NCBI GenBank assembly: GCA_025462755.1
Contig: JAOAPF010000463.1
Coordinates: forward strand, 1 to 44,157
Source: Edaphobacter sp.
GTDB lineage: Bacteria; Acidobacteriota; Terriglobia; Terriglobales; Acidobacteriaceae
Length of the DNA stretch: 44,157 bases
Direction of reading: 5' to 3'
The notes beneath the pieces were generated by a model, which saw only the letters and a list, made by a program, of their open reading frames with translations, did not search any database and was not told where the DNA came from. Shown here one piece after another: positions 32,584 to 41,625 of the stretch. The stretch's first letter is position 1; every line of letters begins with the position of its first letter. The position numbers and the translations under genes are program-made.

Positions 32584-34806
32584 ATGAAGAGCTGCCGTTG
32601 CCTGAAGAACCTTGTTCTCCTCCTTCTTTTTATCTCCTCCTCTTCCGCGCTGCTCCACGCCAACGGAGACCCGGAGGTCGCACGCTGGGAGCGAGAGGCG
32701 GCCAACGTCACCATCATCCGCGACGACTGGGGAATCGCCCACATCTACGGCAAAACCGACGCCGACGCCGTCTTCGGCATGGAGTACGCCCAGGCCGAGG
32801 ACGACTTCAATCGCATCGAGACCAACTACCTCAACGCAATGGGCCGCCTCGCCGAGACCGAAGGCGAATCCAGGATCTACCTCGACCTACGCATGAAGCT
32901 CTTCATCGACCCCGAGACGTTGAAGACGCAATACGCATCCAGCCCCGCCTGGCTGAAGAACCTGATGAACTCCTTCGCCGACGGCCTGAACTTCTACCTC
33001 TACAAGCATCCCGAAGTAAAACCACGAATCATCCAGCACTTCGAGCCATGGATGGCCCTCTCCTTCACCGAAGGCAGCATCGGCGGCGACATCGAGCGCG
33101 TCAACCTCAACCAACTCGAAGCCTTCTACAGCAAACCTCCCGTCATCCAGGCCCGCACCGACGCTGCTCCCATTATCCAAACCGCCTACATTCACGACAG
33201 CGATCCCGCAGAGCCAACAGGCTCGAACGGCATGGCCATCGCACCCTCGAACACCGTCGGCCACCACCCTCTGCTTCTCATCAACCCCCACACCTCCTTC
33301 TTCTTCCGCTCTGAACTCCAGATGTTCAGCGATCAGGGGCTGGACGCCTACGGTGCCGTCACCTGGGGCCAGTTCTTCATCTATCAGGGCTTCAACGAAC
33401 ACACCGGCTGGATGCACACCTCAAGCGGCGTCGATGCAGTCGATGAGTATCTCGAAACCGTGGAGAAAAAGGGCGACGGCTTCTGCTACAAGTACGGCAA
33501 CGAAGAGCGCCCCCTAATCGCAAAGCAGATCGCCGTCCCATACAAGACCGCCACCGGCATGGCCGAAAAGAAGTTCACCGTCTACTTCAGCCAACACGGC
33601 CCCATCATTCGCAACGACAACGGCAAATGGGTCAGCATTCGCCTCATGAACGAGCCCGTCAAAGCCCTGACACAGTCCTACATCCGCACCAAGACGAAGG
33701 ACTACAAATCCTTCCGCAAAACGCTGGAGTTGAAAGCCAACTCGTCCAACAACACCATCTTCGCCGATTCCAATGGCGACATCGCCTACTTCCACGGCAA
33801 CTTCATCCCCCGCCGCGACACCAGCTTCGACTTCACCAAACCGGTCGACGGCAGCAATCCGGCCACGGACTGGAAGGGCCTCCTCACCGTCGACGAACTT
33901 CCGCAATTGCTAAACCCCAAAAGCGGCTGGCTCTACAACAGCAACAACTGGCCATGGTCCGGCGCCGGCGAGAGCAGCCTGCGCAAGCAGGATTACCCCG
34001 CCTATGTCGAGTCCGGCACAGAAACCGCACGCGGACTTCACGCTATCCGGGTGCTAAGGGATAAAAAGGACTTCACCCTCGACTCGCTGATCACCGCGGC
34101 CTACGACAGCTTTCTTCCCTGGTTCGAGAAGCCGCTCCCGGCGCTCATCAAGGCATGGGACGATGCTCCCGCCTCCGATCCTCTGAAGGCCAAGCTCACC
34201 GATCAGATCGCCGCACTGCGAACTTGGGACTACCGCTGGGGAGTAACCTCCATCCCCACATCTCTCGCAGTCTTCTGGGGCGAGGACGCCCGCCGCCACG
34301 CAATCGACGACGCCAAAAAAGCCGGCATATCCGCCGAAGAATACATCGCCACCCGAACCCTCCCGCACCAACTCCTGCAATCTCTCGCCGCAGCCTCCGA
34401 CCGGCTCACCGCAGACTTCGGAACCTGGAAGACACCCTGGGGCGAAATCAACCGCTTCCAGCGCCTAACCGGCGACATTGTCCAACCGTTCAACGATGCC
34501 GGCCCAAGCATACCCGTCGGCTTCACCTCTTCACTCTGGGGTTCGCTCGCCTCCTTCGGAGCACGACCCTACCCCGGGACAAAAAAGTGGTACGGCACCA
34601 GCGGCAACAGCTTCGTAGCCGTAGTCGAGTTCGGAGAAAAAGTGCGCGCAAAGGCCGTCACCGCTGGTGGCGAAAGCGGCAACCCGTCCTCGCCTCACTT
34701 CAACGACCAGGCTAAACGCTACAGCACCGGCGATCTGCGCGATGTCTACTTCTACCGCTCCGACCTCAAGAACCACATCGAGAGGGAGTACCATCCGGGC
34801 AAGTGA
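32584..34806 (+). CDS. Penicillin-acylase-family Ntn hydrolase (acylase)
   Basis: 740 residues with a signal peptide (about 1-26, LVLLLLFISSSSALLHA). The alpha-chain region begins VTIIRDDWGIAHIYGKTDAD. The nucleophile is expected at Ser214 in PTGSNGMAIAPSNT, which becomes the N-terminus of the beta chain after autoproteolysis. The following INPHTSFFFRSE and the later SSNNTIFADSNGDIAYFHGN are typical of the S45 family. Members cleave amide bonds of penicillins, acyl-homoserine lactones or cyclic lipopeptides in the periplasm; the substrate here cannot be fixed, though a quorum-quenching type acylase is plausible. The stop overlaps the next gene (GTGA), implying coupled translation with a GT39 glycosyltransferase. 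Confidence 0.93.
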   Translation: MKSCRCLKNLVLLLLFISSSSALLHANGDPEVARWEREAANVTIIRDDWGIAHIYGKTDADAVFGMEYAQAEDDFNRIETNYLNAMGRLAETEGESRIYLDLRMKLFIDPETLKTQYASSPAWLKNLMNSFADGLNFYLYKHPEVKPRIIQHFEPWMALSFTEGSIGGDIERVNLNQLEAFYSKPPVIQARTDAAPIIQTAYIHDSDPAEPTGSNGMAIAPSNTVGHHPLLLINPHTSFFFRSELQMFSDQGLDAYGAVTWGQFFIYQGFNEHTGWMHTSSGVDAVDEYLETVEKKGDGFCYKYGNEERPLIAKQIAVPYKTATGMAEKKFTVYFSQHGPIIRNDNGKWVSIRLMNEPVKALTQSYIRTKTKDYKSFRKTLELKANSSNNTIFADSNGDIAYFHGNFIPRRDTSFDFTKPVDGSNPATDWKGLLTVDELPQLLNPKSGWLYNSNNWPWSGAGESSLRKQDYPAYVESGTETARGLHAIRVLRDKKDFTLDSLITAAYDSFLPWFEKPLPALIKAWDDAPASDPLKAKLTDQIAALRTWDYRWGVTSIPTSLAVFWGEDARRHAIDDAKKAGISAEEYIATRTLPHQLLQSLAAASDRLTADFGTWKTPWGEINRFQRLTGDIVQPFNDAGPSIPVGFTSSLWGSLASFGARPYPGTKKWYGTSGNSFVAVVEFGEKVRAKAVTAGGESGNPSSPHFNDQAKRYSTGDLRDVYFYRSDLKNHIEREYHPGK

Positions 34807-37228: not shown

Positions 37229-39022
37229 GTGCCTCCGTCCAGTCCCTCCCCGTCCGAGGAGTACAAAAAGCGCCAGCAAGCCCGCGAGATGCAGGTAGCG
37301 CACTTCGAAAACGTGCACCGCCGCTTCGGAAATATCCGTCTTCTCCTGGTCATCGCAACGCTGATCGCCGCCTGGTTCTCCCTCCATCGCGAAGCCTTCT
37401 CCCCATGGTGGCTGCTTCTCGCTGTCGTCCTATTCCTCGCAATCGCCATTCTCCACGCAAAGGTATTGCGCCAGCGCGCATGCGCCGAACGTGCCGTCGA
37501 CTTCTATCGCAAGGGACTGGCCCGCATCGAAGATCGCTGGCTCGGCACGGGACAGACCGGCGAGCGCATAGACGTTCACTCCAGCCTCTACGCCACCGAC
37601 CTAGATCTCTTCGGACAAGGCAGTCTCTTCCAGCTCCTGTCCCTCGCCCGCACCCGCATGGGAGAAGACACCCTTGCCGCATGGCTCCTCTCCCCATCAT
37701 CTGTCCCGCAGCTTACCCAACGTCACGCGGCCGTAGCCGAACTCCGCAGCCGCCTCGACCTTCGCGAAGACATCGCCATCCTCGGCGACGGCCTTAAAGT
37801 GGGCATCCACCCCGATGCGCTCACCCAGTGGGCCGAAGCCCCCAATCAACTTACCCATCGCTGGCTCCGTTGGCTTTCTCTCCTGCTCGCCATCGCAGCC
37901 ATAGCGGCGGCCATCGTCTGGGCTGAGTTCGGAACCAAAGCTCCCTTCTTCGCCATCGTCATCATCGAAACCATCATTACCGCGCTCCTGCGCAAGCGCA
38001 CCGATGCCGTCTTTCACGCCACCGAACACGCCCTCGAGGATCTGCAGCTCCTCTCATCGCTGCTCGCCCGCCTCGAACGCGAACAGTTCGAAGCCCCGCG
38101 TCTGCAGGCCCTCAAGGCCGAGCTCTCCTCTCACCATCTCCTCGGCTCTCAAGCCATCGCTCGTCTGCGAACCATCGTCGAATACATCCGTTCTCTCGAC
38201 AACCCGCTCATGCGCATTCTCAACATCCCGCTACTCTACGTCGTTCAGGTCGCCTATGCGGCCGAGGCCTGGCGCACCGCTCACGGAGCCGCGCTCCGCT
38301 CTTGGTTGAACGCAATCGGCGAAGTAGAAGCTCTCCTCTTCCTCTCCGCCTACAGCTACGAGCATCCATCCGACCCCTTCCCGGAGTTCCTCGAAGGTCC
38401 CCCTTGCTTCCATGCCGAGCAGCTCGGGCACCCCCTCATCCCAGCCGCAAAATGTGTCCGCAACGACATCAGCGTCTGCGACGAAACGAAAGTCCTCCTC
38501 ATCAGCGGCTCCAACATGTCCGGCAAGAGCACGCTCATGCGCGCTGTAGGGGTAAACACCATCCTCGCCATGGCCGGCGCTCCCGTACGCGCACAACGTC
38601 TGCAACTCACACCGTTACAAATAGGCGCAAGCATTCTCATCAACGACTCCCTCCAGGAAGGCAACTCCCGCTTTTACGCCGAGATCACCCGCCTTCGCCA
38701 CATCTGCGACCTCGCCGAAAAGCATCCCCCTGTCCTCTTCCTGCTCGACGAACTCCTTCAGGGCACAAACTCGAAAGACCGCCTCATCGGTGCAGAAGGC
38801 GTCGTACGCGCTCTGCTGGCAAGCGGTGCCATCGGCCTCATCAGCACCCACGATCTGGCGCTTACCAAGATCGGGGGACAACAAGACAACCGCCTCCGAA
38901 ACGTCCACCTCCAGGACGAAATTCAGGACGGCAGGATGACCTTCAATTTCAAGCTGCACGAGGGCGTCGTCACCAAAAGCAACGGCATCGAACTCATGCG
39001 GCTCATCGGACTCGAAGTTTAG
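37229..39022 (+). CDS. Membrane-anchored MutS-family ATPase
   Basis: 597 residues from a GTG (weak ribosome-binding site; ATG 37289 is an alternative). It lacks the mismatch-recognition domain I of MutS. Two hydrophobic segments lie near the N-terminus (about 35-52 and 58-80, NIRLLLVIATLIAAWFSL and WWLLLAVVLFLAIAILHA) and two more in the middle (about 212-231 and 236-250). The lever/core part (about 255-400) resembles MutS domain III. The ATPase domain V is complete: Walker A SGSNMSGKSTLMRA (Lys433), Walker B LFLLDELLQGTN and the switch GLISTHDLAL. Family knowledge: such MutS-like proteins with membrane segments exist in Bacteroidetes and Acidobacteria and have no proven repair role. No mutL is adjacent. 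Confidence 0.9.
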   Translation: MPPSSPSPSEEYKKRQQAREMQVAHFENVHRRFGNIRLLLVIATLIAAWFSLHREAFSPWWLLLAVVLFLAIAILHAKVLRQRACAERAVDFYRKGLARIEDRWLGTGQTGERIDVHSSLYATDLDLFGQGSLFQLLSLARTRMGEDTLAAWLLSPSSVPQLTQRHAAVAELRSRLDLREDIAILGDGLKVGIHPDALTQWAEAPNQLTHRWLRWLSLLLAIAAIAAAIVWAEFGTKAPFFAIVIIETIITALLRKRTDAVFHATEHALEDLQLLSSLLARLEREQFEAPRLQALKAELSSHHLLGSQAIARLRTIVEYIRSLDNPLMRILNIPLLYVVQVAYAAEAWRTAHGAALRSWLNAIGEVEALLFLSAYSYEHPSDPFPEFLEGPPCFHAEQLGHPLIPAAKCVRNDISVCDETKVLLISGSNMSGKSTLMRAVGVNTILAMAGAPVRAQRLQLTPLQIGASILINDSLQEGNSRFYAEITRLRHICDLAEKHPPVLFLLDELLQGTNSKDRLIGAEGVVRALLASGAIGLISTHDLALTKIGGQQDNRLRNVHLQDEIQDGRMTFNFKLHEGVVTKSNGIELMRLIGLEV

Positions 39023-39073: not shown

Positions 39074-39790
39074 ATGAAAGAAGCATCGAAGCGCGCTCAC
39101 GAACCCTGGAAGGCCTTTCAGGCTCGACAGCGCAATCAAGACATCAAGCGCGATGCCGTCCTGCAGACCGCCGCGCACATGTTTCTTGAGCAGGGCTATC
39201 GCCGCACCTCGATGAGCGAGCTGGCAAAGCGGCTGCAGATCACAAAGCCCGCGCTCTACTACTATTTTCACAACAAAGAGCAGATCCTGGTCGAGTGCTA
39301 CCGCGCCGGCATCACTCTCATCGAAACCCTACTCGACAAGGCGCTCGTCAGTCGCGGCACCGGTCTCACCAAGGTCAAAGCCTACATCGAAGCCTACGCA
39401 AAATCCGTCGTCCTCTACGACTTCGGCCGCTGTGTCGCCATGCTCGACGAGAATGAACTCTCCACCGAAACCCGAAAAGAAGTGCGAGCCCTCAAGCGTC
39501 GCATCGACGCCTCGATCCGCGGCTATATCGAAGAGGGAATCGCCGACAAATCCATCGCTCCCTGCGACGCCAAACTCGCCTCCTTCGCCATGTCCGGAGC
39601 CATCAACTGGATCGGGACCTGGTACAAACCATCAGGCCCTCTCAGCGGTGTAGAAATCGCGGGACGCTTCACGCATCTGCTCACCGAAGGCCTCCATGCC
39701 CGAACCTCAACCGCCTCGCGTCAAAACACAATCACGCGTACAACGCCACGCAAAACATCGGCAACCAAAGCAGGAAAGGCTTCGCGTTGA
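39074..39790 (+). CDS. TetR/AcrR-family transcriptional regulator
   Basis: 238 residues. The N-terminal helix-turn-helix (about 25-72) reads DAVLQTAAHMFLEQGYRRTS and ELAKRLQITKPALYYYFHNK. The C-terminal ligand domain (about 75-205) is helical; the last 30 residues are basic and disordered (TTPRKTSATKAGKASR). It is immediately upstream of etfBA in the same direction (117-bp gap). In many bacteria TetR regulators of this type sit beside ETF or acyl-CoA dehydrogenase genes and respond to acyl-CoA, so control of fatty-acid oxidation electron flow is the best inference. Confidence 0.93.
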   Translation: MKEASKRAHEPWKAFQARQRNQDIKRDAVLQTAAHMFLEQGYRRTSMSELAKRLQITKPALYYYFHNKEQILVECYRAGITLIETLLDKALVSRGTGLTKVKAYIEAYAKSVVLYDFGRCVAMLDENELSTETRKEVRALKRRIDASIRGYIEEGIADKSIAPCDAKLASFAMSGAINWIGTWYKPSGPLSGVEIAGRFTHLLTEGLHARTSTASRQNTITRTTPRKTSATKAGKASR

Positions 39791-39907
39791 CTTTCTGACC
39801 CAGCGTTCAGTAAACTTCTCGCCAGCGTAACCCCACCAATCGCCTGCAACGCCGGACAGCTACCAGGAGGCAAACCACAAACATGCAACGGGTGAGAGAG
39901 TGAATAC

Positions 39908-40666
39908 ATGCGGATACTGACCTACCTTCGCCAGGTCCTTGACGCCGAAGAAAGCGTACACGTCGCCAACGGCGCAGTTGCGCTCGAAAACAGCAAGCTT
40001 GTCATGGACACAATGGACGAGTACGGCGTCGAAGAAGCCCTCCGTCTCCGCGAGAGCGGCGTCGAAGCCGAGATCGTCGCCATCGCCATCGGCCCCGCCC
40101 GCGTACAAGACGTTCTCCGCACCGCGCTAGCCATGGGCGTCGACCGCGCCATCCACGTCGAAACCGACATCCGCCTCGACGCCGTCACCCTCAGCAAAGT
40201 CCTCGCCCAACTCGCGACGCAGGAAGACGCAAGCCTGATCTTCTCCGGTGGCCAGCAAGCCGACTGGGACAGCCACGCCCTCGGAGCAGCCACGGCAGAA
40301 CGTCTCCAATGGCCCCAGGCCACCTGGACCTCGGCCCTCGAACTCAAGGGCACCACGCTCACCGGCAGGCACGACGCCGACGAAGGCAGCGAAACCTTCA
40401 CCCTCGAGCTGCCCGCCGTCATCACCACCCAGCAGGGCCTCAACGAGCCCCGCTACCCCACCCTCCCCAACATCATGAAGTCGAAGAAAAAAGAGCTCCG
40501 CAAAGAATCGCTCGACCAATTCAACGTCTCCCCAAAGCTGAAGTTCGTCAGCGCCGAGATCCAGGTCAAAAATCGCGTCAACAAAGTCCTCGATGGCAAA
40601 GACGCACCCGCCGCCGCTGCACAACTCGTCGATCTTCTCCGCAACGAAGCAAGGGTGATCGCATGA
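39908..40666 (+). CDS. etfB: Electron transfer flavoprotein, beta subunit
   Basis: 252 residues. The family is clear from [19 protein letters not shown] at the start (the KQV position is RQV here), [14 protein letters not shown], the [20 protein letters not shown] segment that helps bind AMP, and the conserved [20 protein letters not shown] with NIMKSKKKE. EtfB pairs with EtfA to carry electrons from acyl-CoA dehydrogenases. Its stop overlaps the etfA start by 4 bp (ATGA). Confidence 0.97.
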
Positions 40667-41625
40667 TTCTCATCGTCGCAGAGCACGCCATCGGAAAAGT
40701 AAGCAAGAGCACCTGGGAGATGGTCACCGCCGCCCGCGAGCTGGCCCAGGGGATGGGCCGCGAAGTCCCCATCACCGCGCTCGTACTAGGCAGCAACATC
40801 GCGCCCATCGCAGCCGAAATCGCCCGCGCTGTCGACCAGGTTCTAGTCGCCGATCTTCCGGCACTCGCTCAATACGACGCCGAGCTCTGGTCCGCCGCTG
40901 TCGCTCAAGTCGCCACCGAAGGCGAAGCGTCTGTCATCCTCATCGGAGGCAGCCGCAGCGGCCGAGAGTATAGCCCCCGCGTCGCCGTCAAACTCGAAGC
41001 CCCTCTCCTCGAAGACGTCATCAGCCTCAAAACCAGCGGCGAAACTCTAACCGCGCAACATTACATCCATCTTGCCCGTGTGACGGAGACCATCGAAACC
41101 GCGAGCCCCGTCACAGTCGTCACCATCAAGCCCGGCGTCTTCAACCCAGCGACACCACGCGTCGAAGCAGCCGAACAATTCGACGTCGACCTCAAGCTCC
41201 CGACCCCGCGCCTCAAGGTCACCGGCAAGACCGTCGAGCGCAGCTCCCGCGTCGGGCTCGCGGAAGCAGATATCGTCGTCTCCGGCGGCCGCGGCGTCGG
41301 CAGCGCCGAAGGCTTCACCCAGTACGTAGAAGCTCTCGCCGACCAGCTCGGTGCCGCAGTCGGAGCCACCCGTGCCATCGTCGACGCCGGCTGGCGCCCC
41401 TACTCCGAGCAAGTCGGCCAAACCGGCAAGACCATCCAACCCAAGCTCTACATCGCCATCGGTATCTCCGGCGCCGTCCAGCACCTCTCCGGCATGAACA
41501 AGAGCAAAACCATCGTCGCCATCAACCGCGACGCCGAAGCCCCGATCTTCAAAATTGCCGATTACGGCATCGTCGGCGACGTTCCCCAACTCCTCCCCGC
41601 CATCCTCGCGGAACTCAAAAAATAA
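40663..41625 (+). CDS. etfA: Electron transfer flavoprotein, alpha subunit
   Basis: 320 residues from the ATG overlapping etfB, with AAGGG 7 nt upstream; the frame is open well before this point but those codons lie within etfB. The N-terminal domain runs to about residue 190. The FAD-binding C-terminal domain has [54 protein letters not shown] and [20 protein letters not shown]. EtfAB accepts electrons from acyl-CoA dehydrogenases and delivers them to a membrane oxidoreductase, very likely the product of the gene that follows. Confidence 0.97.

Follow-up and report, generated by a model that had tools for sequence, protein, structure and literature searches.

A MutS-type ATPase with predicted membrane hairpins in Edaphobacter and other bacteria

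What would an ATPase of the MutS type do at a membrane? The question is raised by a gene in a 44,157-nucleotide stretch of Edaphobacter sp. DNA (contig JAOAPF010000463.1 of assembly GCA_025462755.1; the whole stretch is referred to here as the window). A first-pass annotation had described its product as a complete MutS-type ATPase that sits behind four predicted membrane segments and lacks the mismatch-recognition domain. In MutS and MutS2, a pair of ATPase domains binds ATP at composite sites, and the core, levers and clamp move to act on DNA or ribosomes. We found no functional study of a membrane-bound MutS in the literature searched, which did not include the classification of Krishnan et al. 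2020, where the clade may be described; the available parts of PMC8297831 and PMC12419801 hold nothing on a membrane MutS. The gene and its features are as follows.

37229..39022, plus strand: whole gene, 597 aa, GTG start
37328..37384, plus strand: predicted membrane segment TM1, residues 34-52, within modelled helix 8-54 (hydropathy, model, hydrophobic in homologues)
37412..37468, plus strand: predicted membrane segment TM2, residues 62-80, within modelled helix 61-100 (hydropathy, model, hydrophobic in homologues)
37616..37777, plus strand: first piece of MutS core domain III, residues 130-183 (Pfam MutS_III; family profile 128-171 matches E. coli MutS 289-333)
37862..37930, plus strand: predicted membrane segment TM3, modelled helix 212-234, hydropathy peak 216-234 (hydropathy, model, homologues)
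37940..37996, plus strand: predicted membrane segment TM4, residues 238-256, first part of modelled helix 238-283 (hydropathy, model, homologues; weakest of the four by family hydropathy)
37997..38275, plus strand: family-specific helical region, residues 257-349, at the place of the MutS levers and clamp (MutS_IV not matched in sequence)
38237..38362, plus strand: long helix 337-378 that runs into the ATPase and whose second half is equivalent to the end of the MutS core (model, family profile)
38411..39019, plus strand: MutS domain V ATPase, about residues 395-597 (Pfam MutS_V 424-595; Pfam and family profile)
38507..38533, plus strand: Walker A GSNMSGKST, residues 427-435, with K433 (invariant in 14 of 14 aligned members)
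38645..38683, plus strand: ABC-signature-like stretch DSLQEGNSRFYAE, residues 473-485 (D473, S474, L475, G478, S480, F482 and E485 invariant in 14)
38735..38752, plus strand: Walker B LFLLDE, residues 503-508 (D507 and E508 invariant in 14)
38849..38851, plus strand: switch histidine H541 (invariant in 14)

The ATPase, the core and the DNA-handling domains

The open reading frame was confirmed, and its start codon lies at the same place in two close relatives, L034 (85% identical) and L035 (79% identical). Pfam placed MutS_V at residues 424-595 with an E-value of 1.4e-26 (94.1 bits against a cut-off of 30.2), and all 14 aligned family members matched this domain at E <= 0.01. G512 and T513 are invariant in the same 14 sequences, in addition to the motif residues listed above. 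In the family-profile alignment, residue 511 is Q where E. coli MutS has R697; the R697A 'ATPase-asymmetry mutant' is named among the MutS structures listed by Foldseek.

For the core, the evidence came from MutS_III, which in the window protein gave a partial domain match at residues 130-183 with 32.4 bits, just below the Pfam cut-off of 34.1. All 14 members matched it at E <= 0.01, and the Bacteroidota members scored 59.7 and 48.5 bits. When the family profile was compared with E. coli MutS, residues 353-592 aligned with 541-780, and a weak second stretch paired 128-171 with 289-333. With MutS_V above its cut-off and core domain III in 14 of 14 members, the protein belongs, as judged from its sequence, to the MutS branch of the ABC ATPases.

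None of the 14 members matched MutS_I, MutS_II or MutS_IV at E <= 0.01, and a Pfam search of the window protein gave no match to these three families even at E <= 1. Smr and KOW were absent from the 11 Pfam families listed for it up to E 1. The available part of PMC12292046 places the MutS domains at 1-115 (I), 116-266 (II), 267-443 plus 504-567 (III), 444-503 (IV) and 568-800 (V). By these limits the window protein keeps the start of the core and the ATPase, with domains I, II and IV undetected and the C-terminal helix-turn-helix cut short.

The region between the two conserved parts was followed with profile alignments, which agreed with MutS1 over residues 130-182 and with both MutS1 and MutS2 from about residue 350 on. 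Across residues about 183-350 they gave no trustworthy alignment to MutS1 or MutS2 and no convincing similarity to levers or clamp; some of the MutS1 and MutS2 profiles included the wrong-frame rows L122 and L133, and L122 was left out of one repeat. When two Bacteroidota homologues were scanned in pieces, the part ahead of TM3 matched MutS_III positions 18-72 and the part beyond TM4 matched no MutS family; scanned whole, the same two matched MutS_III from 18/19 to 193/194. An equation of residues 272-298 with the 'DLERIL' helix of MutS was dropped; the structure alignment instead starts by pairing residue 191 with MutS 344.

Set beside known systems, the window protein resembles MutS1 (E. coli MutS, TIGR01070) in its core domain III and in a domain V ATPase with Walker A, signature-like stretch, Walker B and switch histidine. 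Unlike MutS1, it has no detectable domain I, connector domain II or clamp domain IV, has two predicted membrane hairpins added, and ends near E. coli residue 785, with the second half of the C-terminal helix-turn-helix missing; its TIGR01070 score is 118.7, against an NCBIfam equivalog cut-off of 641.7. It shares with MutS2 (TIGR01069) the absence of domains I and II, a homologous ATPase and a fold match to 7vuf_D. It differs from MutS2 in that no Smr was found, no clamp is recognisable, membrane hairpins are predicted and its place in the tree is separate, and it scores 77.7 where the NCBIfam equivalog cut-off is 400. KamC, the lysine 5,6-aminomutase reactivase ATPase (NF052383), likewise has a MutS-type ATPase and is named for work outside DNA repair, but here the best stretch is limited to residues 415-541 and reaches 76.1 bits against an NCBIfam equivalog cut-off of 300. 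According to the available part of a review, MutS-like proteins occur in operons with adenosylcobalamin-dependent enzymes (PMC9164220).

The genome encodes three MutS_V proteins, a MutS1 (contig C277, 937 bits), a MutS2 (contig C438, 719 bits) and the window protein, and a MutL (contig C518, 542 bits); MutS1, MutS2 and MutL all score above their cut-offs. These results bear out the annotation on several points: the MutS-type ATPase is complete, the mismatch-recognition domain is absent (and the clamp undetectable as well), and mutL lies on another contig. The annotation had also found such a protein hard to reconcile with mismatch repair, and we agree that it is unfit for the classical pathway, since it lacks the domain that reads the mismatch and the genome has canonical MutS1, MutS2 and MutL genes at other sites. 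A role in mismatch repair itself is very unlikely. This anatomy is well supported and contradicts the database label 'MutS family DNA mismatch repair protein', which is misleading; the label is carried by two Bacteroidota homologues (602 and 604 aa) that lie amid housekeeping genes. What is new is the architecture, which is unlike that of MutS; the ATPase is that of an ordinary MutS, and the family is already in databases.

Predicted membrane hairpins

Hydropathy peaks at residues 34-52, 62-80, 216-234 and 236-254. Along the chain, hairpin 1 (TM1-TM2) is followed by the core piece 130-183 and then by hairpin 2 (TM3-TM4), which lies inside domain III. To follow these segments through the family, we used 85 members, a set in which repeated loci were skipped, the identical proteins L011 and L036 removed and the distant sequences L083-L086, L109 and L110 excluded. 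The best 19-residue windows had median Kyte-Doolittle values of 1.85, 2.03, 2.06 and 1.74 for TM1 to TM4, and a value of at least 1.6 was reached by 0.81, 0.88, 0.95 and 0.66 of the members. The lowest value for TM4 was 0.39, and in the Parabacteroides homologue TM2 falls below the 1.6 threshold. At least three segments of 1.6 or more, anywhere in the protein, were present in 76 of the 85 members versus 0 of 16 MutS1 and 1 of 16 MutS2 control rows, each control set containing one wrong-frame row.

The segments also carry few charges, with means of 0.98, 0.26, 0.38 and 0.96 per 19 residues for TM1 to TM4. Three other helical stretches of the same proteins had 2.65-2.82 charges and Kyte-Doolittle values of 0.76-1.2. 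A fourth comparison stretch, the P-loop helix, had a hydropathy of 0.96 and 1.05 charges, so a low charge is not by itself proof of a membrane helix. Windows free of any charge were found for TM1 to TM4 in 10, 65, 54 and 30 of the 85 members, versus 5, 0, 0 and 0 for the four comparison stretches.

The flanks of hairpin 1 and, more weakly, those of hairpin 2 follow the positive-inside rule. On average, 6.4 lysines and arginines precede TM1 (with 4.5 acidic residues, D plus E), 0.6 lie in the TM1-TM2 loop and 5.4 follow TM2. The corresponding means around hairpin 2 are 1.1 before TM3, 0.6 in the TM3-TM4 loop and 3.4 after TM4; since the 1.1 before TM3 is accompanied by 1.2 acidic residues, the charge bias is weak there. 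Together with hydropathy and a monomer model, this bias leads to a predicted topology in which both ends and the ATPase would be cytoplasmic. Conserved polar residues within the segments are few, namely H76 in TM2 and, where TM1 begins, N35 and R37, both nearly invariant, with none in hairpin 2, which favours an anchor over a transport path.

An AlphaFold2 model built from 14 sequences (mean pLDDT 81.6, pTM 0.81) contains helices at residues 8-54, 61-100, 212-234, 238-283 and 337-378, and the best Foldseek matches listed for it are MutS-family structures. With VIA-align, the model matched E. coli MutS (3zlj_B) at Z 28.5 (rmsd 4.3, 386 aligned, within model residues 115-586) and MutS2 (7vuf_D) at Z 25.6 (rmsd 4.9, 354 aligned). 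Of the alignment rows, a fifth or more cover model residues 114-586, with hairpin 1 outside. Residues 186-384 were also modelled separately (pLDDT 86.6). In isolation this piece aligned to MutS at Z 6.1, below unrelated helical proteins (PA28 and vinculin-like bundles), so the site of hairpin 2 in the MutS fold is approximate.

Membrane anchoring, as the annotation proposed, therefore holds at the level of prediction, the hydrophobic hairpins recurring across the 85 members. Its description of an ATPase behind four segments stands in part: the four hydrophobic segments are there, but just two are N-terminal, and the other two interrupt domain III. It had named burial of these stretches as core helices as the finding that would count against a membrane protein; judged by structure model and alignments, this objection is well answered in the case of hairpin 1 and less firmly in that of hairpin 2.

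Purifying selection over the whole gene is clear, with dN/dS values of 0.092, 0.156, 0.188 and 0.112 against four relatives. By region (saturation left one region of one pair without a ratio), constraint is strongest on the ATPase (0.086-0.118) in three of four pairs; in the closest pair the middle (0.061) and TM1-TM2 (0.074) lie below it. Residues 210-258, which hold TM3 and TM4, gave 0.109, 0.603, 0.591 and 0.464 and are looser in three of the four pairs, a pattern that a membrane anchor would be expected to show.

Phylogeny, distribution and recurring neighbours

The ATPase tree set the family alone with a support of 98/93, and the family plus a sister group with 100/99, apart from MutS1 and MutS2; it was built from 30 of the 45 family rows, 12 MutS1 rows and 12 MutS2 rows, without the MutS1 of the window genome (L126), and is to be read with caution, as long branches come together in it and its bootstrap was not yet fully stable. 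An earlier, larger tree, which included L126 and the two wrong-frame rows (L122, L133), agrees (98/86 and 100/100). The distant sister group consists of four Acidobacteriota sequences, Spirosoma and Staphylococcus. We refer to the family by the working name TM-MutS clade; its ATPase stands apart from those of MutS1 and MutS2, and most of the 85 members have hydrophobic hairpins before and inside domain III.

Matches to the family (E <= 6.4e-58) were found in 127 of 396 sampled genomes of the phylum Acidobacteriota, a count that includes fragments and excludes weaker matches (8e-42 and up). Edaphobacter lichenicola and Acidobacteriaceae bacterium KBS 89 are among the relatives that bear names. 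Four genomes of the genus (G249, G202, G036 and G352) encode a second protein type (L065-L068), 36-38% identical to the window protein and with common neighbours of its own, which indicates two lineages within the genus.

Bacteroidota copies nest inside the Acidobacteriota diversity. WP_009276804.1 and WP_022275341.1 from this phylum have the same length as the window protein, MutS_III plus MutS_V, hydrophobic segments at corresponding places and a position in the same clade; they differ from it in sequence (28-31% identity) and in being annotated by name for mismatch repair. The Bacteroidota proteins L107 and L108 group with L070, L072 and L077 of Acidobacteriota, through either interphylum transfer or assembly contamination. 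In a plasmid collection 40 records were matched, most by the ATPase only, with Bacteroidota homologues among them; the two Bacteroidota 'plasmids' carry a ribosomal-protein operon and argC and look like chromosomal fragments. Distant relatives are encoded on staphylococcal plasmids, among them L110 (536 aa, three hydrophobic segments). A further one lies at positions 4001-4558 of L146, a record deposited as phage PhiSepi-HH3, whose flanks (yheS, tsaD, tsaB, tsaE, ilvD) look chromosomal.

Neighbouring genes were clustered over 64 loci. The two largest raw clusters proved to be antisense frames of the gene itself; with overlaps removed, 168 clusters with at least two loci were left, and the 60 largest were checked. 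Fourteen of these 60 extend beyond two groups of close relatives. Representatives of seven of the 14 were named by eye: ABC-transporter ATPases (7 loci, on mixed sides and strands), a glycosidase, an NtrC-like regulator, a PQQ-type dehydrogenase, an FAD oxidase, an acyl-CoA dehydrogenase and a VPS10-like protein. All seven are generic superfamilies, and across the 64 loci no specific partner gene common beyond close relatives was found among the named clusters. The gene looks like an orphan.

Candidate functions

Since domains I, II and IV are undetectable and the hairpins stand before and inside the core, the most likely job of the protein is that of a membrane-coupled, ATP-driven switch. We give a probability of about one in two to an integral inner-membrane ABC ATPase of the MutS branch that would switch or remodel a membrane or membrane-associated partner. 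Each chain would hold two hairpins, that is four TM helices, in the membrane, with both ends in the cytoplasm and short loops outside, and would carry the core domain of MutS and, in the cytosol, a MutS ATPase whose composite active site is intact. Two chains may pair through their ATPase domains, by analogy with MutS1 and MutS2; ATP binding and hydrolysis could then change the spacing of the two core domains and thereby move the attached hairpins. The parts that grip DNA would have been lost or replaced, with hairpin 1 ahead of the core and hairpin 2 within domain III. In principle such a machine would be comparable to MutS relatives that work off DNA, namely MutS2 on ribosomes and KamC. We suggest more tentatively that the clade as a whole may have left DNA, exchanging mismatch reader and clamp for membrane hairpins, and that in many bacteria, under a mismatch-repair label, it may use ATP to work on membrane proteins or the membrane, which would make it a MutS-derived counterpart of mechanotransducing ABC systems.

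The annotation had considered DNA uptake, recombination control or chromosome anchoring at the membrane, or action on something other than DNA. A membrane-bound MutS could still handle DNA if its core and ATPase surfaces replaced the clamp and held recombination intermediates, incoming DNA or the nucleoid at the membrane; MutS ancestry and the intact composite ATPase site speak for this, and MutS2, also without domains I and II, binds branched DNA according to the available part of PMC12292046. We regard it as unlikely, because clamp domain IV was matched in 0 of 14 members, the middle region has no convincing similarity to levers or clamp, MutS1, MutS2 and MutL are encoded separately, and no specific neighbour family recurs beyond close relatives in the 64 loci, whose clusters were partly named. 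DNA work at the membrane has lost its main structural basis, and the DNA roles first proposed gain nothing from our results. A target other than DNA is the better fit, but we found no partner. That the MutS branch is not bound to DNA follows from B. subtilis MutS2, which, as stated in the available part of PMC10897456, splits collided ribosomes with the same type of ATPase. A similar action on stalled ribosomes making membrane proteins would suit the Bacteroides finegoldii homologue, a single case, which lies three genes from a ribosomal-protein operon with secY. The Parabacteroides homologue has no such neighbour, and none recurs among the named clusters of the 64 loci; with no Smr or KOW among the Pfam matches up to E 1, no recognisable clamp and a MutS2 also in the genome, a link to translation seems improbable.

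An anti-phage or conflict protein, with the ATPase as sensor and the hairpins as membrane effector, has a comparably low probability in our view. The presence of the family is patchy, 17 of 22 genomes in the genus (the window genome included) versus 8 of 22 from other genera of the taxonomic family, and distant relatives are found on staphylococcal plasmids. Against this stand weak PADLOC matches (three families, best E 0.0086, in the P-loop region), metabolic and regulatory neighbours, downstream ETF genes kept in 5 of 64 loci, and purifying selection. It is also conceivable, at long odds, that the protein is a soluble MutS paralogue with its hydrophobic stretches buried, given that the domain in which hairpin 2 lies, domain III, is soluble in MutS, and that TM4 is only moderately hydrophobic in some members (down to the 0.39 given above). 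However, helices 8-54 and 61-100 fall outside the MutS match, uncharged windows are far more frequent in TM1-TM4 than in the comparison stretches, and median hydropathy stays high despite the fast change of residues 210-258 in three of four pairs. If the protein does work at the membrane, surveys of repair genes count mismatch repair too often in Acidobacteriota and Bacteroidota, and evolution has made a membrane device out of the MutS fold.

Around the gene itself, the regulators and ETF genes reported by the annotation were all seen: a GntR/FCD regulator upstream, and TetR followed by ETF beta and alpha downstream; a PMT_2 glycosyltransferase and a penicillin amidase are also nearby. TetR, ETF beta and ETF alpha occupy window positions 39074-41625 on the same strand, TetR starting 51 bases past the gene, and co-transcription with these downstream genes is possible. 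ETF beta and alpha are found downstream on the same strand in five of the 64 other loci (L034, L035, L036, L087 and L088; 85-90% identical), so in the closest relatives the gene lies just upstream of an ETF pair. No TetR match was nearby in four of these five, and the TetR and GntR neighbours are common to one locus of the 64 (L034). A link to ETF is conceivable in the closest relatives and is not kept elsewhere. The penicillin-amidase family protein (window positions 32584-34806, E 2.1e-118) has an N-terminal hydrophobic stretch.
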